Assembly: GCA_021732525.1 (NCBI GenBank) | Contig: JAKFUU010000007.1 | Location: forward strand, 1 to 41,327 | From: Sphingomonadaceae bacterium | GTDB lineage: Bacteria; Pseudomonadota; Alphaproteobacteria; Sphingomonadales; Sphingomonadaceae | Length of the DNA stretch: 41,327 nucleotides | Reading direction: 5' to 3' | Part shown: positions 30,781-41,327 of the stretch, one piece after another | Position numbering within the stretch: position 1 is the stretch's first letter | Layout of the letters: every line of letters starts with the position of its first letter | The notes under the pieces: generated by a model | What the model was told of the DNA's origin: nothing | The model's input: the letters and a program-made list of their open reading frames with translations, nothing else | Database searches by the model: none | Made by a program: the position numbers and the translations under genes

Positions 30781-30943
30781 AACTCCGCCCCTCTGTTTCT
30801 CTCAGCATCAGGTTGCAACGGCAAGCCGCGCTTTGCAATCATGTTTCTGAGCATCGCTGGTGTAAAAATAACGGGCGCCCCGCAGCGAAGCTTGAATAAC
30901 CCCATCAACCGCGATATGGGTGCGGCCGCGTAATATGCGCAAA

Positions 30944-30982
30944 GCCGCCTTAGCTCAGTTGGTAGAGCACTTCATTCGTAAT
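30944..30982 (+). pseudogene. Truncated duplicate of tRNA-Thr (5' half only)
   Basis: The first 26 bases are identical to the 5' end of the intact tRNA-Thr at 31112. After a changed CTT the anticodon-loop sequence CATTCGTAAT is again identical. The anticodon stem cannot pair and the 3' half is missing, so it cannot be functional. It lies 168 bases upstream of the intact copy in the same orientation. Confidence 0.8.
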
Positions 30983-31111
30983 TAGCAGGTCTGATTGCGG
31001 AAGTCGTGAAAAGCCAAGGGGTTGCAGCGGCCCTGTAAAATTTAGTAGGCAATTAGTTGCCAGTTCGGGTAAGCCCTTGCGAAGGGGAAATCCCGCAAAA
31101 AACATGGCTAG

Positions 31112-31187
31112 GCCGCCTTAGCTCAGTTGGTAGAGCATCGCATTCGTAATGCGGGGGCCGTAGGTTCGAATCCTATAGGCGGCACCA
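31112..31187 (+). tRNA. tRNA-Thr (anticodon CGT)
   Basis: A complete 76-base tRNA with encoded CCA. The acceptor GCCGCCT pairs with AGGCGGC, the D-arm is GCTC-AGTTGGTA-GAGC, the anticodon loop TTCGTAA gives anticodon CGT, and the T-arm is GTAGG-TTCGAAT-CCTAT. It reads ACG codons. The accessory genes begin 37 bases beyond its 3' end, which makes it a plausible integration target. Confidence 0.95.
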
Positions 31188-31900: not shown

Positions 31901-34183
31901 TCAAAACGGCGTGTGTTCATCCGCTACCCACTTGCCCGAAGTAGCGCGCCATTCTCCAGCTACGCATTCCGCTTTCCATTCAATCTTATTGGCATTTCCT
32001 TCACCCCGAATATAGCCCTTTGCAGGGTTGAGATCGTTGACGAAACGATGGACTCCCTCTCGCCAACCCAACTCGGTCATAATTGCTAAAATGCGTTTTG
32101 GATGATCGTTTCTACGATCTTTGGGATCAAGTTTTAGAATGCGATAAATTGTTTCCCGACGAACACGCCCGTCTTTCCCTTCAAAGTTTCTTCGCAATAT
32201 ATCCTCAAAAGGATCACCTATCATGCGCTCGCCTTGGATGACCGCTGCTTCAAACCATAAATGCTGAGGGAGTGTAGCCATTTCGCCATTGCGATGCCGT
32301 TGCATGGCTTCTGCCCACAATTGATCGCGATTGGCGACAAATGCTTCAACGTCCACTTTGCCAACGGTGACAGGCCAAAACCGTCTGTTGCCGCTGTAAT
32401 CGGTCAGATAGGTTTCATCGTTAGTTGTCCCGATGATGACACAGTGCCGTTTGAACTGTTGTGCTTTACGCGCATAAGCAGGGCGGAATGTATCAGCGGT
32501 TTTTGATAGAAAACTCTTGAGTGCCTGAATTGTCGTTTTGGTCATGCCATCAAGTTCGGCCAATTCCACAATCCAAGCGCGCAACAAAGTTTCTGCCTTG
32601 GTTTTGTCGTCACTCCGAAGACTTAGCCCCTCATTGACCCACTCAGGATTTGGTGACAGCGCAAAGACAATACGAGATTTCCCAACCCCTTGCAGCCCTT
32701 CCAAAATTAGGATGGTATCAAATTTCGACCCCGGCTGCATTATCCGCTTAACCGCGCCGATAAGTGTCCTTGCGCCAAATTCTCGATGGAGTTCGCTGTC
32801 TTCTGCTTGGCAATAATCAATCAGCCAACGGTCTAGCCGCTGGACACCATCCCAGCTAAGTTCAGTCAGATAGTCCTTGATAGGGTGGTATTGATTTTCG
32901 TGTGCCAAGGCGGTTAGCTCGCGGCATATGGCTTCCGTTCCAGCCCAAAAATCATATTCACGTTGGAAACGGCTACATAGAATATCCGCGATTTCTTTTA
33001 TGTCCCGATTTTCAAAATTCGGGCCGTCAATTTCATCTTCATGACTAAACTGATTATGCCGTGCGGAGACGCCTTGAAGCAAAAATCCATGCCGGATATT
33101 ATCTGGCCAATTTTTTACTGGCTTCTGGTTATCATCAACTTTTGGCCAGCCAAGGTTGTTTGCTGCGACATATTGCATCGCACGTTCTATCTGCCGTGTT
33201 GCATAAGCCAGCGGCTGCGGATTTTCGAGAATATGGGCGCTAATACCCAATTGCGGATCAAGCAAAATGGATAGAATGATTTCAGGACGCACCTTATGAG
33301 ACAATAACCAGACAATGAGCGCATGAACCCGTTCGGAACGGCTGGAGTAACTTTTGTGCGCTGGATCATTTCCTGTTGCGATTACAAGTGCCCAATTTGC
33401 ATCAGGCGGCACAATTTCTGACAAATCGGCTGGAAGCGGCTCAGGCGCTCCTATTCTAGAAGTTTGATTCACCGCTCCTACTTTCGCAAGCTGTTTGCCC
33501 TCAACCTTATATCGCTTCAGATCAAAATCATTTGCTGCAATCCCCGAATGGATGTCAAGAGAAGGGGCATAATCCAACGCCTTTGCTGACGCTGGCACTC
33601 GCCCCGATTTCCGCTTTTTATCGTTCAGCCAGTTTATCGTTCCGGGCAGTCGCAGCAAACGGCTAACGTCATGTGTTCCCATGCCGCCGTTCATTGCATG
33701 CAATACCTGTTGATTTAAGACTGCGGCCTCATCGGCTAGCATTGGTTCTGCCAGCCGCCATACGGCTTGCGCTCCGCCGCCTGTAAGCCAAACAGCGGAC
33801 GGACGCGGAACACCCTTTGGGCGCAACTTATCATCCAGCAATAATCCGGTGATCTTATCCAATTGCTCGTCAGGTGTTCCGTTGTAATCTTTGCAATCCA
33901 AATCCACATGCAAAAAGTTTGCATGGGAGATGTTGGCTTTGCCGCGATTGCCTACAAGGAATTCATAATTGGCCAAGAAATAGACGTTCTTCGCGCCCGC
34001 CTCAGAATTACACTCATTTATGAAAGCAACAAATTCGGCTTTATCATTGGGGTTAAAGATTCGGGAATAGGGGGCTGCATTGCCTTCGCTATTCATCACT
34101 TCCACATAGCGCGACTGGTTAGGGAATAGCTTGTCAAAGAATGACCAAGCATGTTCCGCATTGGGGGCGAGAATATCAGTCAT
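31901..34183 (-). CDS. Primase-helicase fusion: RepB/AEP-type primase with VapE-type ATPase
   Basis: A 760-residue replication protein. The N-terminal third resembles archaeo-eukaryotic-type (RepB/PrimPol) primases: FLHVDLDCKDYNG has the catalytic DxD, followed by AVWLTGGGAQAVWRL and HDVSRLLRLPGTINW. The C-terminal half is a virulence-associated-E (VapE) family ATPase with Walker A LEGLQGVGKS, an acidic WIVELAELDGM and an asparagine sensor IIGTTNDETYLTDYSGNRRFWP. Such fusions replicate phages, plasmids and satellite islands. The ATG at 34183 has GGGGAG eight bases upstream and overlaps the regulator gene by eight bases. It is the main gene of the element. Confidence 0.88.
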   Translation of the reverse strand: MTDILAPNAEHAWSFFDKLFPNQSRYVEVMNSEGNAAPYSRIFNPNDKAEFVAFINECNSEAGAKNVYFLANYEFLVGNRGKANISHANFLHVDLDCKDYNGTPDEQLDKITGLLLDDKLRPKGVPRPSAVWLTGGGAQAVWRLAEPMLADEAAVLNQQVLHAMNGGMGTHDVSRLLRLPGTINWLNDKKRKSGRVPASAKALDYAPSLDIHSGIAANDFDLKRYKVEGKQLAKVGAVNQTSRIGAPEPLPADLSEIVPPDANWALVIATGNDPAHKSYSSRSERVHALIVWLLSHKVRPEIILSILLDPQLGISAHILENPQPLAYATRQIERAMQYVAANNLGWPKVDDNQKPVKNWPDNIRHGFLLQGVSARHNQFSHEDEIDGPNFENRDIKEIADILCSRFQREYDFWAGTEAICRELTALAHENQYHPIKDYLTELSWDGVQRLDRWLIDYCQAEDSELHREFGARTLIGAVKRIMQPGSKFDTILILEGLQGVGKSRIVFALSPNPEWVNEGLSLRSDDKTKAETLLRAWIVELAELDGMTKTTIQALKSFLSKTADTFRPAYARKAQQFKRHCVIIGTTNDETYLTDYSGNRRFWPVTVGKVDVEAFVANRDQLWAEAMQRHRNGEMATLPQHLWFEAAVIQGERMIGDPFEDILRRNFEGKDGRVRRETIYRILKLDPKDRRNDHPKRILAIMTELGWREGVHRFVNDLNPAKGYIRGEGNANKIEWKAECVAGEWRATSGKWVADEHTPF

Positions 34184-34397
34184 TAGACATGCTCCCCGGA
34201 TTGCGTTGCTGCGATTCCAGCCAGCTTTCGACGTCTGAACGGCGGTAGAGAATTTTGCCTGACCGCTTGCCCGATTTGATGCCGATATATTGGGGGCCGT
34301 AGCCATACAGGCGGCCCTTCTCGAAATACGAGGCACTTAGCCCTGTCAGTTCGGGTAGTTCCTTTGTGGTCAGGATTTTTCTTTGATTTAGTGACAT
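34176..34397 (-). CDS. AlpA/MerR-type helix-turn-helix regulator or excisionase
   Basis: A 73-residue DNA-binding protein. The core LTTKELPELTGLSASYFEKG is a winged helix-turn-helix start, and GKILYRRSDVESWLESQQ is the characteristic 'wing plus RRSDVEAWL' end of AlpA/excisionase-like proteins. Such proteins activate the integrase gene or direct excision. The ATG at 34397 has AAAGGAG seven bases upstream; the longer open frame to 34694 overlaps the next gene and is rejected. It is translationally coupled to the primase-helicase gene. Confidence 0.85.
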   Translation of the reverse strand: MSLNQRKILTTKELPELTGLSASYFEKGRLYGYGPQYIGIKSGKRSGKILYRRSDVESWLESQQRNPGSMSND

Positions 34398-34483
34398 TTC
34401 AAACTCCTTTGTTTGCCGTAATTGGCCAAAGGAGGATCTGATTTTATCCGGTATCAGAGGTATCGCCTGTAACTTAGGTTCAG

Positions 34484-35176
34484 TTACGACTGATAAGCTG
34501 GGATACTTCGGGCTACGCCATGCAGCACTGAGATAGGGTCGTTCATCCCCATCGCTCGAGTCAATTTCATAAACACGGCTTCCACCCAAGGAGTGATAAT
34601 TGTTTTGCGTTCCGAGTTGAACATTATGCGCGTTCCCGTGCCTTTTTGCTCTTTCCAGAATTTCTGACAATGCACGCAAAATGCTGCAACCCATTTAGCC
34701 GTTATTGGTTTGCCCGTGCGGCCTTCGAGTTCATCGACTTTGGCAAAAACCCGCATGAGTTCGACGGAAGCGAGATTGAATTTCCGAACAGCATTTTCCG
34801 CGTCCAAATGCTTCAACAACATATCCATCAACGCATCACGCCGTGCTGCAAAAATCAATTCTGCTAGGTCGTCAACTTTATCGGCAATCCGGTTCAGTTT
34901 GGCCTTGGCTTCGCTAAAATGGGTCAGGTCGGCTGGAACATCCACCTTATTTGTTTGAATTGTAACGTCTGAGAAACTGCGAATAATCTCTACCGCATCA
35001 TATAGAAAGTTCAGATGTGCCAACCCATCACTGAAACCAAACTCAGTCATCAGCTCAGCATTGATAGCACGCAAATCTAGGTCAGGTTCGTCACTAGCTG
35101 GCAGGTCGGCAACGCCGTGAACAATATCATATTTCAAGACAGCGCCTTTAGATTTATCGATCTTACTTTTCGCCAT
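34484..35176 (-). CDS. Hypothetical protein of the integrated element
   Basis: A 230-residue, mainly helical, soluble protein. No family is recognised. The N-terminus is Lys-rich (MAKSKIDKSKGAVLKYD), the middle is rich in charged heptad-like helices (LTHFSEAKAKLNRIADKVDDLAELIF), and it contains a CVHCQKFW segment with two Cys. The ATG at 35176 overlaps the integrase end by 14 bases, so it is probably co-transcribed with it. Its position between integrase and regulator is where satellite elements often keep regulatory or anti-phage genes, but nothing in the sequence identifies one. Confidence 0.7.
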   Translation of the reverse strand: MAKSKIDKSKGAVLKYDIVHGVADLPASDEPDLDLRAINAELMTEFGFSDGLAHLNFLYDAVEIIRSFSDVTIQTNKVDVPADLTHFSEAKAKLNRIADKVDDLAELIFAARRDALMDMLLKHLDAENAVRKFNLASVELMRVFAKVDELEGRTGKPITAKWVAAFCVHCQKFWKEQKGTGTRIMFNSERKTIITPWVEAVFMKLTRAMGMNDPISVLHGVARSIPAYQS

Positions 35177-36332
35177 GCCCCACCAACTCCAATATCTTTG
35201 CTGCCACTTGTTCCACAGGGCCGCGCAATCGTTCAACATTTATCACAATATAGCCGCCCGTCACATCGCCATCCGCACGGTGATTGAGCAGCCGCTTGAG
35301 CGCATAATGTGGAATATCGAGGCTTTCGGCTATAGTGATAAACGTGCGGCGCAAATCGTGGATGGTGAATTTGATGGCACTCGCCGCGCAAACGCGGGTG
35401 AGGAAGCGTTTGGTTTCTACCAAATGCCCCGTTTCGCCGGGACCGGGAAACACCCAAGGCGACGCGCCCGTTTGCACTTTGCGGCTGGCAAAGACGCTCA
35501 TCAAGAATGCGGATAAAGGCAAATCCAACGGATCGCCATTTTTGGTTTTTGAAATATGCAAACTGGCCAAAACAAAGTCGATATTCTCCCACCGCAATTT
35601 CATCACTTCGCCGCGCCGCATTCCGGTGAACAATGTGATGATCAGAAAATCTCGCGATAGGCTTGGTTCGGCTTGCACCGCCTTCCACCAATCGGGCAAA
35701 GCATGGGCGGCAATCAATGTCCGCCGCCGTGTCTCCCTATGCCAGCTTCGCGTTTTGCTCAATATGTCCACCGGATTGGGCGGGAAATCATCTTGCGTTG
35801 CCGATATGCAATTATAAACTGAGCGCAAATGTCGCATGGCGTTGTTGCCCGTCACGTCGCCATATTGCTTGCTGATTTTCTTGTGCCGCTCCATCACCAT
35901 TGAACGGGTCAGTTCGCATAAAGGCTTGTTCCCCCAATCCTTCAGATAACGCCTTGCCGTTCGGCCATAGCCTTCCACCGTATGCGCGGACAGATTAGGA
36001 CGGATTTCAAAGAATGTGGCAAAGGCCTTAGCCAGTGTCACCTTGCGGCTGGCAACCGCCTTGGCTTCTTCGACCGGATCAACCCCGTCCGCCATTTCGG
36101 CCAGCAAGGCCAACGCCTTCCCTCGTGCAATATCCACCGGGATATAGTCGGCGCGCCCAACGGTGATACGCCGCTTGGTTCCATTGACGCGGCCATCGAC
36201 ATAATAGCTTTTCTGGTTCGTCCCCACCCGCAAGCCAAATCCGGTTAGCAAGGTATCTCCATAAAAGTCCTGTCTCTTTTCAGCGAAGGGTATGGCCTCT
36301 ATGTTGGTTTTCGTAAATTTCAATTTCTGCAT
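35163..36332 (-). CDS. int: Tyrosine-type site-specific integrase with Arm-binding (DUF4102) domain
   Basis: A 389-residue tyrosine recombinase. The N-terminal DUF4102-like domain (FYGDTLLTGFGLRVGTNQKS) binds arm-type sites, and the middle SAM-like domain is KAFATFFEIRPNLSAHTVEG. The catalytic residues are visible: Arg in FTGMRRGEVMKLRW, HxxR in IHDLRRTF, a second His in LLNHRADGD, and the nucleophile Tyr in VTGGYI. All are present, so the enzyme looks intact. It is the outermost gene on the right of the element and reads toward tRNA-Thr about 4 kb away. That is unusual if that tRNA is the attachment site, because integrase genes normally adjoin the att site. Confidence 0.92.
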   Translation of the reverse strand: MQKLKFTKTNIEAIPFAEKRQDFYGDTLLTGFGLRVGTNQKSYYVDGRVNGTKRRITVGRADYIPVDIARGKALALLAEMADGVDPVEEAKAVASRKVTLAKAFATFFEIRPNLSAHTVEGYGRTARRYLKDWGNKPLCELTRSMVMERHKKISKQYGDVTGNNAMRHLRSVYNCISATQDDFPPNPVDILSKTRSWHRETRRRTLIAAHALPDWWKAVQAEPSLSRDFLIITLFTGMRRGEVMKLRWENIDFVLASLHISKTKNGDPLDLPLSAFLMSVFASRKVQTGASPWVFPGPGETGHLVETKRFLTRVCAASAIKFTIHDLRRTFITIAESLDIPHYALKRLLNHRADGDVTGGYIVINVERLRGPVEQVAAKILELVGHGEK

Positions 36333-36647: not shown

Positions 36648-36950
36648 TTAAAACTTCTGCTCAAACAACTTGCCACCTGCCATCACCAAGATACGAGAAG
36701 CCGCGGCGATGGTTTCTTGCCTGTGAGCGATGATTATGCGAGTGATGCCCATCCCACCGATTGCTGCATTGACCGCTTGCTCATGCGCTGTATCGAGATG
36801 AGCTGTGCCTTCATCAAGGATTAGTAATGCCGGCTTGTGGTAAATCGCACGGGCGATGCACACCCGCTGTTTCTGGCCGCCGGACAATGTCGATCCCATA
36901 TCGCCGACCAGCGATTCATATTGCATGCGCATCGCCATGCGCATGCCAGT
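36648..36950 (-). pseudogene. 3' fragment of a bacteriocin-type ABC exporter ATPase (copy 1)
   Basis: Only the last 98 residues of the ATPase domain remain: MQYESLVGDMGSTLSGGQKQ is the ABC signature region, LLILDEGTAHLD is Walker B plus D-loop, and ITRIIIAHRQETIAAASR contains the H-loop. The tail matches the usual C-terminus of CvaB/peptidase-type exporters. Walker A, the membrane domain and any peptidase domain are absent. Its first part is almost base-for-base the same as copies 2 and 3, but after Walker B it is different. It joins AT-rich unrelated sequence at about 36950. No leader precursor follows it. Confidence 0.85.
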
Positions 36951-37165
36951 ATTAAATTAAATAAATATAGAATATAATAAATTATTTTTTTTGTCCACAA
37001 AAATATATCTATCATCAATGCTGAAAAAAACATATATCCAACAATATATCCAACTGTAATAAAGTTAATGTAATCTTTAACAATAATATTTAAAAATAAC
37101 GATGAAACCATAAACATAAAAAGCATCATAGATATATGACGAGTATATTTGAAATGTATTTTCAT
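36821..37165 (-). CDS. AT-rich membrane protein, immunity candidate, truncated by ABC copy 1
   Basis: From the ATG at 37165 (TAGGTGA upstream) about 73 residues are lysine-poor and strongly hydrophobic. There are three membrane segments: ISMMLFMFMVSSLFLNIIV, FITVGYIVGYMFFSALMIDI and IIYYILYLFNLIL. Past about 36947 the frame runs into ABC copy 1 in the wrong frame, so the last 40 residues (ACAWRCACNMNR and on) are not original. The natural C-terminus was therefore lost by recombination. It follows a secreted-precursor gene and a hairpin, the usual place for an immunity gene. No family recognised; immunity is inference from position. Confidence 0.6.
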   Translation of the reverse strand: MKIHFKYTRHISMMLFMFMVSSLFLNIIVKDYINFITVGYIVGYMFFSALMIDIFLWTKKIIYYILYLFNLILACAWRCACNMNRWSAIWDRHCPAARNSGCASPVRFTTSRHY

Positions 37166-37189
37166 AAATCACCTAAATTCTATTAAAAA

Positions 37190-37224
37190 CTAAACCACTC
37201 GGCAACACGTGCCGAGTGGTTTAG
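37190..37224 (-). terminator. Hairpin/terminator after the 199-residue precursor
   Basis: A perfect 15-pair stem (37190-37204 with 37210-37224, loop ACACG) is followed by T-runs on both strands, so it may work in both directions. It lies eight bases past the stop of the precursor gene. Confidence 0.85.
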
Positions 37225-37231
37225 GTTTTTA

Positions 37232-37831
37232 TTAATAAGGGAGGAACGTGCGTGGGTACGATCCGGGATTTTGTATTTGATCAAGCTGTTGATTAAAGGT
37301 AGAATCGTACAGTTCCTGTGTAAGGAGATTTGTCAAAGGCGCCCCAACGGCTGCGCCCGCCAAGTTCAATGCCACCTGCTGCCCTAATGTAAGGCCCGCA
37401 GTAGCTTGGGCTCCAACAATTGTTATAACTGGAGAAGCAATCACGCCAGACACATAAAGACTTAATTGAGCTGACAAATGAGCAGCCTGTATTTGACCAT
37501 GGGTTGCAGAAGCTGTCACTACAATCGGAGGCGTCTCCCTGATGCCATCGCCGTCATTGTCGGTCCCATCTGGATAGTGCGTCGGTCCGCCGCCACCGCT
37601 GGAGCCTTCGCCGCCGTAAATAAGCGTAGCGTACGGGCTATATCCTGCAGTTTCATGTGAATTGCCTCCGCCAAAGCCGCCGCCCCCAAAGCCAAAGTGA
37701 CCAGAGCCCGAATTAATGTCGTATCCAATTACAAGAATGTCGTCAAATCCCCCGCTGACCATCATAATTTCATCGCTGGTGAGTTCGCGGAACCCACCCG
37801 ATGGTTTGCTGTTTATCACTTGCATATTCAT
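37232..37831 (-). CDS. Double-glycine-leader secreted protein (cassette 2 precursor)
   Basis: A 199-residue protein with a bacteriocin-type leader of about 28 residues ending FRELTSDEIMMVSGG, the cleavage context used by peptidase-containing ABC exporters. The cargo is about 170 residues: a Gly-rich stretch (FGFGGGGFGGGN), a DGTDNDGDGI segment that could bind calcium, PPIVVTAS, and a Gly/Ala-rich hydrophobic region (VITIVGAQATAGL, LNLAGAAVGAPL) that could enter membranes. It is long for a microcin and recalls glycine-zipper bacteriocins. The ATG overlaps the stop of ABC copy 2 (ATGA) with AAGGAG upstream. The leader is almost the same as in the 146-residue precursor; the cargo is unrelated. 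Confidence 0.82.
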   Translation of the reverse strand: MNMQVINSKPSGGFRELTSDEIMMVSGGFDDILVIGYDINSGSGHFGFGGGGFGGGNSHETAGYSPYATLIYGGEGSSGGGGPTHYPDGTDNDGDGIRETPPIVVTASATHGQIQAAHLSAQLSLYVSGVIASPVITIVGAQATAGLTLGQQVALNLAGAAVGAPLTNLLTQELYDSTFNQQLDQIQNPGSYPRTFLPY

Positions 37832-38385
37832 GTTACTTCTCCTTGGTTGATGTTAGCCTCATGGCTATGCTCCCGCAAGTAGCCGCCGATTAACGCCGTG
37901 AAGCGCGTCGCATTGGCCATGGCGGAAGGTTGGTGGGAGCAGATCAGGATCGCGATATTCAGCTCGGTGAGCGATGTCATCAGCGATTGCTCCATCATCG
38001 GGTCGATGTTGGCGGTGCCTTCATCTAAGATCAAAAGGGACGGTTTGTGGTAGATCGCGCGGGCAATGCATACCCGCTGCTTCTGGCCGCCATCTAAGAT
38101 CAAAAGGGACGGTTTGTGGTAGATCGCGCGGGCAATGCATACCCGCTGCTTCTGGCCGCCCGACAGCGTCGATCCCATATCGCCGACAAGCGATTCATAT
38201 TGCATCGGCATCGCCATGATATCGTCGTGGACATGAGCCACCTTGGCCGCCGCGATGATATCGTCCATTTCGGCATAGGGATCAAAGAAGGCGATATTCT
38301 CCGCCATCGTTCCGGCATAGAGCGCATCATCCCGCGCCACATAGCCGATCAGCTGGCTGAGCTTTGTGCAATTACGCAACGTCAC
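37828..38385 (-). pseudogene. ABC exporter ATPase remnant with internal duplication (copy 2)
   Basis: About 180 residues of a nucleotide-binding domain. It begins at TKLSQLIGYVARDDALYAGT, so Walker A and everything before it are missing. The signature LSGGQKQR and Walker B LLILDEG are present, but a 69-bp exact tandem duplication inserts a second GGQKQRVCIARAIYHKP unit between them. The C-terminal tail (ICSHQPSAMANATRF to NQGEVT) is shared with copy 3 and differs from copy 1. A membrane exporter cannot be made from it. Its stop overlaps the ATG of the 199-residue precursor, so it may only serve now as a leader for translation of that gene. Confidence 0.85.
38022..38159. repeat. 69-bp perfect tandem duplication inside ABC copy 2
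   Basis: Bases 38022-38090 are repeated exactly as 38091-38159. The unit is a multiple of three, so the frame is kept and 23 residues covering part of the ABC signature and Walker B are doubled. No such duplication is present in copies 1 or 3. Confidence 0.95.
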
Positions 38386-38401
38386 CGTAATTCACATTGC
38401 A

Positions 38402-38421
38402 GAAGATTGGTGGGAGCAGAT
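38402..38421 (-). repeat. Vestige of a further ABC-tail copy
   Basis: Twenty bases differ at one position from the segment GAAGGTTGGTGGGAGCAGAT that codes for part of the shared ATPase tail in copies 2 and 3. It lies between the ClpP-like gene and copy 2, and looks like the trace of an earlier recombination or deletion. Confidence 0.55.
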
Positions 38422-38449
38422 AAAGCTACTATTAATACTATTCAAAACG

Positions 38450-39285
38450 TCAACGCCCCTGCGTTCCTTTTGAAATGCATCCATAACCAGGAGGACCTAT
38501 AGAAAATATTTCTTCTCCAAAAGTTCCGTAAATAATATATGAGTCCGGAAATATCTCATTGACATCTTCAATGCTATCGTGCGATTCTGTATTACTGCCC
38601 CAATAATCTATTTTTATACCGTAATACTTGATGTTTTCTTTCGAAAGCACCCAGAGCATATCTTTATAATTTCTACAAATTAGATTTAATTTAAAATCAA
38701 TTCGCCTAACTAAATCTTTATATTGATTCAGATAAGATTTATCTCTCATTATATCATCAAAAAAATTAGTTTCTTTTTTTAAGAGAGTGTCTCTATATAA
38801 TGAATAATCTTTCTTTAGTTTTTCTTGATGATGTTCGTATTTTCTATTTAAAGAAAATTCAATAATATTCGAAGGAATAGATCCATGACTTATTATGAAC
38901 GAATCTTTCATTAAAGAAATCGATTTTGCAGCAGGAACAATATAATTAGCGCAAGAAGATACGCAATATCCATCAACTACTACTTTTATTTTATTTTATT
39001 TTTAAATATAAAATAGCCTAATTGAATTGCAGAATTTACATCACCCCCTTTGCTTTTTATAATTATGTAATCTATTTTTGACTTTTTATTTTTAATGAAT
39101 TTTATTGATTCACTATCAATTTTATCGTATAAACATAGAATTGTTGCATTATTGGCCTTTATTGTTATGTTTCTTTCTAAGCAGATATCTCTAAAAGATT
39201 CATAGGAAGTCAATTTTTCAACTTTAATATAATTTGTCTTAATTCCCAACACTATGAAAGTAAAAAATAGAAAAATTTTTGTCAT
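38450..39285 (-). pseudogene. ClpP/crotonase-fold secreted protein, split by a five-base repeat
   Basis: Two open frames (39285-38986 and 38911-38450, the latter open from just after 38998) join into one protein of about 276 residues if one five-base unit is removed. The N-terminus is a signal peptide (KIFLFFTFIVLG). The conserved core is IIIKSKGGDVNSAIQLGYFI, then after the break VVVDGYCVSSCANYIVPAAK and IISHGSIPS. This matches the GG-loop and Ser-containing turn of ClpP-like periplasmic proteins (COG3904 type). The last 150 residues are charged and helical. It occupies the slot after the 146-residue precursor. It could be an immunity or processing factor, and is AT-rich unlike the backbone. 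Confidence 0.7.
38984..39003. repeat. Pentanucleotide tract (TTTTA)3 inside the ClpP-like gene
   Basis: On the plus strand TTTTA is repeated three times and followed by TTTTT. With three units the minus-strand frame stops right after the tract; with two units it reads through into the rest of the domain. This is the pattern of slipped-strand mispairing. Confidence 0.85.
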
Positions 39286-39307
39286 AATCTCATTACCTTA
39301 AAGCTTA

Positions 39308-39339
39308 CATCGAGACCGATTTCAAAATCGGTCTCGATG
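39308..39339 (-). terminator. Hairpin after the 146-residue precursor
   Basis: A perfect 15-pair stem (39308-39322 with 39325-39339, two central bases) begins 24 bases past the precursor stop. No strong T-run follows on the minus strand. It occupies the same position as the hairpin at 37190-37224 but has a different sequence. Confidence 0.65.
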
Positions 39340-39363
39340 CCATTAATTGTTCAATATATTATT

Positions 39364-39804
39364 CTAAAATATATCGGAATTATCTGCAATCGCTCGCTCC
39401 ACCGCTCCCTGCAACTGATAGATGCGTATCCTATCATACACTAGATCAGCCTGCTCAGCCCCGCTGAGATGCCCAAATTCGCTCTCAACTCCTAGAATTA
39501 TAGCCTCCTCCCTGCTTGGTTCTGAAACTGGGAAGCAATTAAATCCGCTTGAGGTTGCATTACAGTGGGAATTTGGAAGTCGTGTTAAGTTGAGTGGCGA
39601 CATCTCTTGAAGAACCTGCTCAATTGTGTGAGACGTATTTGGATGAGGTACGTCATCAACAGTTAAGTCTATGTGGATGTTTATTACGATTCCTGGATGG
39701 CGTCTTGGTTCTCCGAATCCCCCACTCACCGCCGCAATTTCATCGCTGGTGAGTTCGCGAAAGCCGCCGGTAGGTTTGCTACGGTTTATCACTTGCATAT
39801 TCAT
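39364..39804 (-). CDS. Double-glycine-leader secreted protein (cassette 3 precursor)
   Basis: A 146-residue protein whose leader of about 29 residues ends FRELTSDEIAAVSGG and differs from the other precursor at only a few positions. The cargo of about 117 residues is unrelated to it: it is soluble and acidic, starts FGEPRRHPGIVINIHIDLTV, contains two Cys (NSHCNATSSGFNCF) that may form a disulfide, and ends in a helical part (LSGAEQADLVYDRIRIYQLQ). No toxin domain is recognised. The ATG overlaps the ABC copy 3 stop by four bases with AAGGAG upstream. A hairpin and the ClpP-like gene follow. Export by a peptidase-type ABC transporter is inferred from the leader. Confidence 0.82.
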   Translation of the reverse strand: MNMQVINRSKPTGGFRELTSDEIAAVSGGFGEPRRHPGIVINIHIDLTVDDVPHPNTSHTIEQVLQEMSPLNLTRLPNSHCNATSSGFNCFPVSEPSREEAIILGVESEFGHLSGAEQADLVYDRIRIYQLQGAVERAIADNSDIF

Positions 39805-40500
39805 GTTACTTCTCCTTGGTTAAGTTTAGCCTCATGGCTATGCTCCCGCAAGTGGCCGCCGAGCAGCGCGGTGAAGCGCGTCGCATTGGCCATGGCGGAA
39901 GGTTGGTGGGAGCAAATTAGGATCGCGATATTCAGCGCGGATAAGGCGCGCATCAGCGATTGCTCCATCATCGGGTCGATATTGGCGGTGCCTTCATCAA
40001 GGATTAGTAATGCCGGTTTGTGGTAAATCGCGCGGGCGATGCACACCCGCTGCTTCTGTCCGCCGGACAAAGTCGATCCCATATCGCCGACCAGCGACTC
40101 ATATTGCATGGGCATCGCCATGATATCGTCGTGCACATGCGCGGTTTTGGCCGCCGCGATGATATCATCCATCTCAGCATAAGGATCAAAGAAGGCGATA
40201 TTCTCCGCCATCGTTCCGGCATAAAGCGCATCATCCTGCGCCACATAGCCGATCAACTCGGCAAGCTTGGTGGGGTCATAGACAGACAGCGGACGGCCAT
40301 TGAGCAGCAGTTGGCCCGCCGTGGGATCAATCAAGCCCTTGATGATCTTAATCAGCGTCGTCTTGCCGCCACCCGATGGCCCCGCCATGCCGATAATCTC
40401 GCCGGGTTTGATGACAAGATTGACCCCGCGCAATATTTCCGGTTCCGACGGCGCATAGCGGAACCAGATATTGCGCAGTTCCAGCCCGCTGCCGAATCGA
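39801..40500 (-). pseudogene. ABC exporter ATPase domain without membrane part (copy 3)
   Basis: A complete nucleotide-binding domain of about 230 residues: it opens GLELRNIWFRYAPSEPEILR, has Walker A GPSGGGKTT, Q-loop GYVAQDDALY, signature LSGGQKQR, Walker B LLILDEG and an H-loop ICSHQP. At 40500 homology ends abruptly and AT-rich unrelated DNA begins, so the transmembrane and peptidase domains are absent. No good start codon or ribosome-binding site is present; the nearest in-frame start is a TTG at 40433 inside the domain, before Walker A. It is best read as the 3' remnant of an exporter gene. Its stop is coupled to the next precursor. Confidence 0.85.
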
Positions 40501-40504
40501 TTTT

Positions 40505-40825
40505 TTATAGATCAGGATTATTTTTCGTAATTTTAGAATTTGGGTATTTTTTTAAAAAATCGGATAGAGTTATTGGGGTATTTTTATATATGTATAAATA
40601 TATAGCATAAATAAATATGCATGTAAAGATAATATAAGATAGATAACTATCTGATAAGCGTAAATTTATTATTGAAACTAAAACAATTAAAACCAGTGTC
40701 TTCTTGTTATTGTTTTCAATTAAAATTTCAGATTTACATTTGTTACAATGAAATGGGTGGCCTAGACCGATTAAACATTGCTCAATGGGTATTCCGTCGT
40801 CGCAAGCAGGGCATTTTTTTAACAT
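40505..40825 (-). CDS. Zinc-ribbon membrane protein, immunity candidate
   Basis: A 106-residue, AT-rich gene product. The N-terminus has two Cys pairs (KKCPACDDGI and FHCNKCKSEI), a zinc ribbon. Two hydrophobic stretches follow (TLVLIVLVSIINLRL and YIIFTCIFIYAIYLYI) and then a basic, polar tail. The start has AGAGGATC upstream. It ends five bases before ABC copy 3. Zinc-ribbon plus two-helix proteins next to toxin genes often turn out to be immunity proteins, but here this is inference from position and build. Base composition is clearly unlike the chromosome backbone. Confidence 0.65.
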   Translation of the reverse strand: MLKKCPACDDGIPIEQCLIGLGHPFHCNKCKSEILIENNNKKTLVLIVLVSIINLRLSDSYLSYIIFTCIFIYAIYLYIYKNTPITLSDFLKKYPNSKITKNNPDL

Positions 40826-40932
40826 AATTGATCCTCTTTTTTTGTTATCATTTAATGATCAATATTTAAAATTATAATAAAAGAGAATTAATCATCGATT
40901 AGTATATATTATTTAAATTAAAAACATTTATT

Positions 40933-41226
40933 TTATCTTTGACTAAAAATATCTTCATAAAAGGGAATAAAGGGGTTAGGATTAATTGCATCAAAAAAAT
41001 CACCAATATTCCTAAATTGGTCAAAATTTGTAGTGTCAGGAAAATCAATTTGAGCAATAATGTCGTCTGCAAGCTGTTGCGCTGATCCATCGACAAGTGC
41101 AGTTATTCCTCGTTCAGCAAGTAAAACTGCAACAATGGAAAAGAGTGCGGGTGCAGATGCAGATGTAAGTGCCGCACCCACCGCCAATCCGCCTAGAAAA
41201 TGACGTGCACCCCAACTTGTTACCAT
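40933..41226 (-). CDS. Hypothetical small protein with Gly/Ala-rich hydrophobic helix
   Basis: A 97-residue protein. The N-terminal half is a Gly/Ala-rich hydrophobic stretch (HFLGGLAVGAALTSASAPAL and FSIVAVLLAERG) and the C-terminal half is acidic (DFPDTTNFDQFRNIGDFFDA). The ATG directly follows an in-frame TGA, with GGAGG 13 bases upstream. No double-glycine leader is present. It stands between a palindrome (41273-41308) and the zinc-ribbon gene, so by analogy with the neighbouring cassettes it is a downstream gene of a precursor lying outside the window. Alternatively it is itself a membrane-active effector. No family recognised. Confidence 0.55.
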   Translation of the reverse strand: MVTSWGARHFLGGLAVGAALTSASAPALFSIVAVLLAERGITALVDGSAQQLADDIIAQIDFPDTTNFDQFRNIGDFFDAINPNPFIPFYEDIFSQR

Positions 41227-41272
41227 TCAGAGATAGAGTCCTCCTGTTAAATGCTTGATGGTTGAAGGGATG

Positions 41273-41308
41273 ACAAGCTCTATCGGGGCATGCCCCGATA
41301 GAGCTTGT
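41273..41308. terminator. 36-base perfect palindrome at the right edge
   Basis: Bases 41273-41290 are the exact reverse complement of 41291-41308 with no loop. On the plus strand TTTT overlaps its end. In the minus-strand reading it stands where hairpins follow the two known precursor genes, which suggests that another precursor ends just beyond the window. Confidence 0.6.
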
Positions 41309-41327
41309 TTTGCGGCCTCTGCGGGGG

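Follow-up and report, generated by a model that had tools for sequence, protein, structure and literature searches.

A probable decayed array of double-glycine-leader cassettes joined by exporter gene remnants in a Sphingorhabdus genome

Orphan rhs-CT and cdiA-CT arrays of the Rhs and contact-dependent growth inhibition (CDI) systems are thought to feed replacement by recombination. As in the locus described here, they form a chain of cargo genes and their partners lying behind remnants of a shared carrier gene (cf. PMC3150448 and PMC3967940). Arrays downstream of secretion machinery, again as here, are found in the auxiliary clusters of the type VI secretion system (T6SS) of Vibrio cholerae, in which orphan immunity arrays are attributed to serial replacement by imported effector-immunity modules through homologous or homology-facilitated recombination (sections of PMC5361080). 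With small peptides, the Escherichia coli siderophore-microcin islands H47, M and I47 have several immunity-activity pairs sharing one membrane fusion protein/ATP-binding cassette (ABC) exporter, with reports of truncated genes for microcins and for export and of traces left by recombination (sections of PMC7472721 and PMC3191183). The present locus was identified in a Sphingomonadaceae bacterium of the genus Sphingorhabdus (GCA_021732525.1; G000, 68 contigs), and consists of remnants of an export pump gene interspersed with genes for double-glycine-leader peptide precursors. The window, being the whole stretch of DNA analysed, is contig JAKFUU010000007.1 (C23), positions 1-41,327, with the array at 36648-41200, read on the minus strand.

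It is considered probable, with considerable room for doubt, that the locus represents an orphan array, now decayed, whose exporter-linked cassettes have been turned over by recombination and deletion in exporter operons. The evidence comprises the exporter remnants themselves, leaders shared by unrelated cargos, a chimeric remnant, divergence that mostly precedes truncation, and the recurrence of such remnants in other species. The order of remnant, precursor, hairpin and AT-rich gene is present twice in the window, the features being as follows.

41201..41327, no strand: end of a multi-copy element and assembly break (127-bp match at 9 other contig ends)
40933..41200, minus strand: 3′ portion of a gene truncated by the repeated element, with a hydrophobic Gly/Ala-rich stretch (open reading frame (ORF) 40933-41226)
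40505..40825, minus strand: AT-rich gene, 106 aa, 26.5% G+C, with two CxxC pairs and hydrophobic stretches
39801..40490, minus strand: exporter remnant 1, open frame, from about the start of the nucleotide-binding domain (NBD) to its stop codon (PF00005, E 7.8e-32)
39364..39804, minus strand: precursor 1, 146 aa, leader ending ELTSDEIAAVSGG (leader motif; protein search)
39308..39339, minus strand: hairpin between precursor 1 and its AT-rich neighbour (inverted self-match, 94%)
38450..39285, minus strand: AT-rich gene of a ClpP-like secreted-protein family, 26.8% G+C, in two frames (profile, 76.8 and 31.5 bits)
~38376..38449, minus strand: tiny exporter remnant, CTGCTCCCACCAA...GCAATG block (by-eye comparison with remnant 2, unscored)
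37828..38375, minus strand: exporter remnant 2, open frame (ABC ATPase match; ratio of non-synonymous to synonymous divergence (dN/dS) 0.12 against remnant 1)
37232..37831, minus strand: precursor 2, 199 aa, leader ending ELTSDEIMMVSGG (variant P0002)
37182..37232, minus strand: hairpin after precursor 2, then a T-run (inverted self-match, 82%)
36947..37165, minus strand: AT-rich membrane-protein gene, 19.2% G+C (ORF 36821-37165)
36648..36946, minus strand: exporter remnant 3, chimeric (informative-site split; per-half identities)
35163..36332, minus strand: tyrosine integrase, outside the array proper (PF13356, Arm-DNA-bind_3; PF00589)

All three large remnants are C-terminal pieces of the exporter NBD (ABC ATPase matches), with no membrane domain among the domain matches of the window's remnants. 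This agrees with an earlier reading made from the DNA letters alone (the sequence-only reading), which also had the precursors coupled to the remnants by ATGA; remnants 1 and 2 each overlap their own precursor in this manner. The same reading described three near-identical remnants in a repeated order. Remnants 1 and 2 have 88% nucleotide identity, but only the first half of remnant 3 is clearly of the same lineage, and the order holds twice, with remnant 3 being followed by no precursor and having an integrase gene beyond it. In addition to the three large remnants there are the tiny fourth and a decayed fifth, the latter away from the array (C7:113484-113744). The direct repeats seen earlier are confirmed by self-comparison of the window, with one present in three copies (36774-36939, 38053-38218, and 39957-40122) and two-copy blocks of 281 and 283 nt (89 and 87% identity). 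The G+C content jumps along the array, being 54-57% in the large remnants, 47-51% in the precursors and 19-27% in the AT-rich genes, with 54% for the window.

Both precursors possess the leader motif ELTSDEI..VSGG with a predicted GG-type cleavage site, their leaders being 87% identical over 30 residues. A tblastn search of either precursor against the window returned only the leader of the other, the cargos sharing nothing, which bears out the claim of shared leader and upstream sequence with unrelated cargos; the proposed hairpins are likewise present after both precursors. In a 5.8-billion-protein database searched by shared words, precursor 1 gave three hits from 51 candidates, namely itself and two leader-only proteins covering 21-22% of it, while precursor 2 gave two hits from 1,941 candidates, namely itself and P0002. 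The latter, on a 1,144-bp contig, has the leader type of precursor 2, a different middle and an identical last 112 residues, which makes it a mosaic within the cargo; P0002 and P0003 are mosaic precursors. Related bacteria had been expected to vary in cargo behind a common leader. Similar stubs do occur in other species, with P0002 as the single variant of a cargo behind the same leader type. In the search against curated precursor families, precursor 2 scored 16.2 bits with MccV (cut-off 27) and precursor 1 had no match. Judging from the leader and the Gly/Ala-rich, membrane-active-looking C-terminus of precursor 2, both appear to be bacteriocin- or microcin-like. Of the peptidase exporter and HlyD-type adaptor belonging to double-glycine/class II microcin loci, NBD remnants only are present in the window. 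Full exporter operons are found in relatives, with another lineage on contig C41, and it may be that the orphan precursors are exported by the type-2 exporter of C41 (type 1 being exemplified by locus L085, type 2 by C41, L089, L107, and L108).

A search of 45 genomes of the genus gave matches of at least 49% identity in nine (G000, G003, G006, G013, G017, G026, G037, G042, and G044). Full exporters of the remnant 1-2 lineage are present in two same-genus genomes, G003 (S. contaminans, locus L084) and G013 (L085), with 79 and 78% amino acid identity to remnant 1 respectively, which in the S. contaminans exporter corresponds to residues 501-720. Short-frame remnants were found in G000, G042, and G037, and a separate comparison gave two more remnant places in G003. 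The sequence-only reading would be refuted by the lack of a full exporter with the same ATPase tail in the genome, and in half this is the case: no full exporter of the remnant 1-2 lineage is present in this assembly, and it is for the tail of remnant 3 alone that a full relative exists there. Among the matches listed, the closest full exporter in the assembly (C41, 703 aa) shares 50% identity with remnant 1; upstream of it lie hlyD, a 115-aa precursor and a gene for a small membrane protein. The other full-length ABC proteins among these matches reach at most 34%. A resolvase accompanies this full type-2 exporter locus on contig C41 (11.6 kb, L041), where a ParA-like ATPase and a partial IS3-like element are also recognisable by eye, so the locus may be plasmid-borne.

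In L085 the gene order is hlyD, exporter and a precursor overlapping the exporter end. In L084 a full hlyD-exporter pair precedes an ORF ending as a 3′ exporter stub, beyond which come a precursor, a gene for a membrane protein and one of the ClpP-like family. Because of this order, the window can be regarded as the natural 3′ end of an hlyD-exporter operon kept twice without the rest. Upstream in L084 is a scar in which hlyD residues 1-30 are fused to exporter residues 670-705, followed by another precursor and ClpP-like gene.

Over 156 codons, remnants 1 and 2 differ at 36.8 of 106 synonymous and 19.2 of 362 non-synonymous sites (dS 0.46, dN/dS 0.12), while the L088 (G042) stub compared with its resident full exporter gave a dS of 0.59 and a dN/dS of 0.12. 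Five of seven further comparisons gave finite ratios of 0.06-0.46, these being L107 (0.19), L129 (0.46), L084 (0.24 and 0.31) and the L109 (G037) stub against the exporter of another species, L088 (0.06). Ratios well under 1 imply that most divergence accrued in working exporters, before truncation; a stub copied after truncation should drift toward a ratio of 1, so the low values oppose copying within the locus. They speak for separate exporter operons having met here, import and old paralogues being left undistinguished. A single operon duplicated in tandem, its copies then undergoing 5′ deletions and drift with no imported cassettes, would explain why the repeats run in the same direction, and the internal hlyD-exporter scar of L084 shows that deletion occurs. 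This course is nevertheless judged unlikely, as the cargos and partners are unrelated amid flanking transporter and leader DNA of 82-89% identity, every comparison with finite dS, be it remnant with remnant or remnant with full copy, has a dN/dS below 1, and remnant 3 has two different parents.

The second half of remnant 3 has 50% nucleotide identity to remnant 1 and 81% to the full C41 exporter. At the 109 sites informative between remnant 1 and C41, the counts are 29:3 before and 18:59 after the best split, which lies between 36816 and 36804; none of 2000 shuffles was as extreme, with every fourth split point tried and sites treated as independent. The switch of parent falls at the conserved Walker B codons. 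On these counts remnant 3 is a chimera, with a first half of the remnant 1 lineage and a second half mainly from a C41-type exporter. Such a chimera also looks like a replaced 3′ end, which would be expected if islands integrate site-specifically into the exporter 3′ end, each carrying a replacement 3′ end, with the remnants being displaced ends at island borders. Some phages integrate in icd with a replacement 3′ end, and integrase genes lie beside remnant 3 and near the L088 operon. However, the remnants begin at different gene positions, namely the NBD start and then approximately 70, 95, 120 and 170 codons further on, so there is no common core site; the hlyD 5′ remnants of other loci do not fit, and the window yielded no second copy of the tRNA-Thr end. 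Fixed-site integration into the exporter was rejected for the array on account of these differing starts, and island insertion as a whole is held to be quite improbable.

The possibility was also considered that the remnants work as short ABC proteins, or as devices for leader coupling, under selection for translation of the precursor. All three large window remnants have open frames, two have the ATGA overlap and dN/dS is low. Against this, remnants 2 and 3 begin past the Walker A region, remnant 2 contains an exact in-frame 69-bp tandem duplication (38092-38160 / 38023-38091), both precursors possess their own AAGGAG ribosome site, and the G037 stub has an internal stop, making this the least credible of the explanations and a very improbable one.

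To return to the orphan array, its recurrence was surveyed in the wider family. The family search covered 397 genomes with 12 candidates scored per genome at E 1e-22, settings with which short remnants can escape. From its 87 listed matches, the 46 of at least 97 bits were taken in and 41 weaker ones left out; eight of the 46 lay in the window or in loci already collected and 38 were new, giving 48 loci with the 10 already collected (the window, the C7 fragment and L090 (G026:C23), which is just 27% identical to the exporters, being excluded). A remnant was scored as a partial copy of the locus's own exporter or hlyD with at least 40% identity. The leader motif used for precursors is crude, overlooking L084:6320-6766, L107:2599-2940, and L121:6247-6510, all recognisable by eye. 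A full exporter is present in 46 of the 48 loci, five of which also have a partial copy (L084, L088, L107, L121, and L129). In L107 and L129 the precursors lie upstream of hlyD, and the partial copy is the hlyD 5′ end (73 and 39 residues respectively). L088 has, in order, a full exporter, a precursor, an S9 peptidase gene, a 230-aa gene, a 130-residue stub and an aspartyl-protease/PDZ/TPR gene. In L109 the stub, interrupted by its internal stop, immediately precedes a precursor, with no full exporter of this family detected in G037; the neighbour of the stub resembles an integrase fragment by eye only, with no Pfam match. Seven remnants are the transport-gene end adjoining a precursor, namely window remnants 1 and 2, two in L084, and those of L109, L107, and L129.

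At Erwinia piriflorinigrans L100:6905-8309, far outside the family, an internal deletion left a similar scar with pieces of hlyD and the exporter tail, and an aspartyl-protease gene lies upstream of it; this hlyD-exporter scar was not counted, there being no precursor by the leader motif. Also not counted was L146 (G050), a 220-232-aa ABC frame with no full exporter and no precursor seen. L085 (type 1), L089 and L107 (both type 2) are each flanked by lepA on one side and a common ABC-F gene on the other, which indicates one chromosomal site used by both types; L108 (type 2), at a contig end, sits beside that ABC-F gene, on the ABC-F side only, while in G000 lepA (C2) and the ABC-F gene (C4) are apart. 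A named-genome scan with remnant 1 gave 16 loci, three of them from Sphingorhabdus. No remnant was found at the Xenorhabdus exporters (L094-L096) with the queries used, and IMG/VR viral contigs contained no relative of precursor 2 or remnant 1. Each of the 3,466 plasmid records matching remnant 1 at E 1e-20 has below 60% identity, so no close plasmid carrier of remnant 1 is among them. The Rfam scan gave only two matches, both sub-threshold, which were disregarded.

The ClpP-like partner of precursor 1 has 32% amino acid identity to L084:13632-14501, in two adjoining frames. The frame changes near 38990, at a run of AAAAT units (38986-39010), a change that may reflect decay, a phase-variable tract or an indel error. 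A profile built from the three S. contaminans (L084) copies identified, in the 48 loci, its three seeds, L132 (6839-7696), L139 (7421-8110) and a weak match in L146, and also matches the window gene in two pieces. The copies lie at six places in four loci (the window, three in L084, L132, and L139), five being directly after a precursor and the sixth (L084:4921-5643) separated by a membrane gene. The ClpP-like family is rare: in 149 family genomes it occurs at four places in three genomes, the window included; at the three others no exporter, hlyD or precursor query match lies within 3.2-3.6 kb. Two non-seed matches in 0.76 Mb of exporter loci (L084, L109, and L146 excluded) compare with three outside them in the 149 genomes, suggesting that the family is truly associated with exporter loci, the two scans having unequal E-value bases and comparable bit scores (38-67).

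An AlphaFold model of L084:13632-14501, made from three sequences, has a mean pLDDT of 62.9, with residues 41-130 at 82-97. Its best PDB matches are ClpP (E ~1e-6; TM 0.37 by query and 0.54 by target; rmsd ~9), making a ClpP/SppA fold likely but not secure. Residues S110 and H134, invariant in all three L084 relatives and also recognisable in the copies from the window, L132, and L139, may be catalytic. With Pfam CLP_protease, one of the three L084 relatives scored 15.3 bits (cut-off 20.2), and the other two, L132 and L139 had no match. Other peptidases are found at these loci: L088, L139, and L100 have aspartyl-protease genes, and L107 has a PrsW-like gene that scores below cut-off. The S9-family peptidase gene of L088 (6833-8788), which lies directly after a double-glycine precursor, may resemble the lasso-peptide isopeptidases of sphingomonads. 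The nisin resistance protein NSR is a precedent for a peptidase acting on a bacteriocin, and by analogy the partner peptidases may provide self-protection.

In the proposed mechanism, a cassette would consist of a double-glycine-leader precursor and an AT-rich partner gene, presumably for self-protection, situated at the edge of an hlyD-exporter operon. New operons or operon pieces would arrive from related bacteria and recombine with the resident exporter operon or insert beside it. The shared transport genes and leader would serve as homology, so that cargo and partner change behind a leader and transporter that remain similar. Surplus copies of the transporter would then be lost by deletion, often with the end next to the retained cassette spared, this being the exporter 3′ end if precursors lie downstream and the hlyD 5′ end if they lie upstream. 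Homologous recombination with incoming DNA is the presumed driver and a protective role of the partner genes is similarly presumed. The sequence-only reading had proposed recombination through the exporter 3′ end, with which the switch in remnant 3, the dN/dS values, the stubs beside precursors elsewhere and the variant P0002 agree; it was too narrow, as two loci have hlyD 5′ ends and the L084 scar joins hlyD to the exporter. A wider wording of the mechanism is preferable, with recombination and deletion at any point in the transport genes; whole operons arriving and then undergoing deletion would account for the findings no less well than crossover within the exporter 3′ end.

Several observations weigh against this interpretation. 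The L129 and L084 ratios rest on 30-44 codons each, two of the seven further comparisons have saturated dS, and the same dN/dS would result from two functional operons that had long coexisted before one exporter was deleted. Toward its end remnant 3 sides with remnant 1 once more, by 8:2 over the last 10 informative sites, the cause being a second switch or else misalignment past a gap. Partner 1 is split in two frames and partner 2 runs into remnant 3 (the frame of 36947-37165 enters it without a stop of its own); such damage speaks against a maintained weapon store. No precursor adjoins remnant 3, the L088 stub (its next gene is the aspartyl-protease gene), the L121 remnant (a LysR-like gene lies in between), the C7 fragment or the Erwinia L100 scar. 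Just five of the 46 full-exporter loci have a remnant, in a survey built on short matches, and that of L121 is weak (42% over 64 aa). Finally, with one genome per species, no within-species turnover was seen except for P0002 on its 1,144-bp contig.

A broader notion, put forward tentatively and doubtful at this breadth, is that peptidase-type exporter operons are a general platform for the exchange of polymorphic weapons, with transport genes and leader anchoring the cassettes, a partner that is often a secreted or membrane peptidase (ClpP-like, aspartyl, S9 or PrsW-like) and shields the producer by destroying the producer's peptide, and stubs marking past exchanges. Orphan cassette arrays have been described for large contact-dependent toxins; counterparts at small-peptide export operons would imply a shared mode of diversification, in which microcin-type weapons diversify with a pump gene as anchor. 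Transporter stubs beside leader genes would also be a searchable mark for precursors which ordinary searches overlook because their cargos have few relatives, and the recurrent ClpP-like partner would be an unusual kind of candidate self-protection.

At the right edge, the last 127 bp of the window are shared with nine other contig ends, the flanking sequence beyond differing in each. This repeat (41201-41327), found at ten contig ends including that of the window, contains a 36-nt perfect palindrome and is probably the end of an insertion element. As the start of ORF 40933-41226 lies inside it, the right-hand cassette is cut there. The cut gene (40933-41200) is possibly a third precursor, with the 106-aa AT-rich gene (TIGR04104 24.6 bits, under the cut-off of 45) as its putative partner. 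Precursors 1 and 2 are present on four and five contigs respectively, with the longest being 611,138 bases for each, and from this equal size both would appear to lie on the same contig. Their recurrence on other contigs weighs against an assembly artefact, which had been named as a possible source of the repeats.

Adjoining the array at 31901-36332 are genes for a VapE-domain protein and the integrase (Arm-DNA-bind_3), which look like a P4-like satellite module; no attachment sites were found for this module. There is also a 44-nt direct repeat of 89% identity (30939-30982 / 31107-31150), the second copy spanning the 5′ half of tRNA-Thr (31112-31187) and the other being just upstream of that gene.

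In open-licence literature, no description of exporter-stub-linked precursor arrays was found in the titles and abstract openings of the leading matches, nor is there one in the sections drawn on of PMC10233263, PMC9746304, and PMC3482391. As far as the sections cited above describe the V. cholerae T6SS, it differs in that immunity genes accumulate; the cassettes here keep precursor, partner and transporter stub side by side, and some stubs are hlyD 5′ ends lying upstream. The E. coli microcin islands are the nearest small-peptide precedent, likened by description and not by sequence; in the sections cited, exporter stubs are not described as repeated cassette joints. The pneumococcal blp region also has variable double-glycine peptide and immunity genes with a peptidase-type ABC exporter, differing in being Gram-positive and quorum-regulated, and we know of no transporter-stub joints there. 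Like the orphan tips of Rhs and cdi loci, to which the locus was first compared, the array appears to work by changing cargo behind a shared carrier: remnants 1 and 2 each precede a precursor. The window ends in a repeat, and a full carrier gene in the same locus is present at L084 and L088. In Rhs and CDI, however, the remnant is part of the toxin carrier, while here it belongs to a separate export pump gene accompanied by a leader peptide. With a pump gene and not a toxin as carrier, and toxicity putative, the array is not filed as a member of the Rhs/CDI or T6SS systems but stands beside them as a likeness at a peptide export operon.

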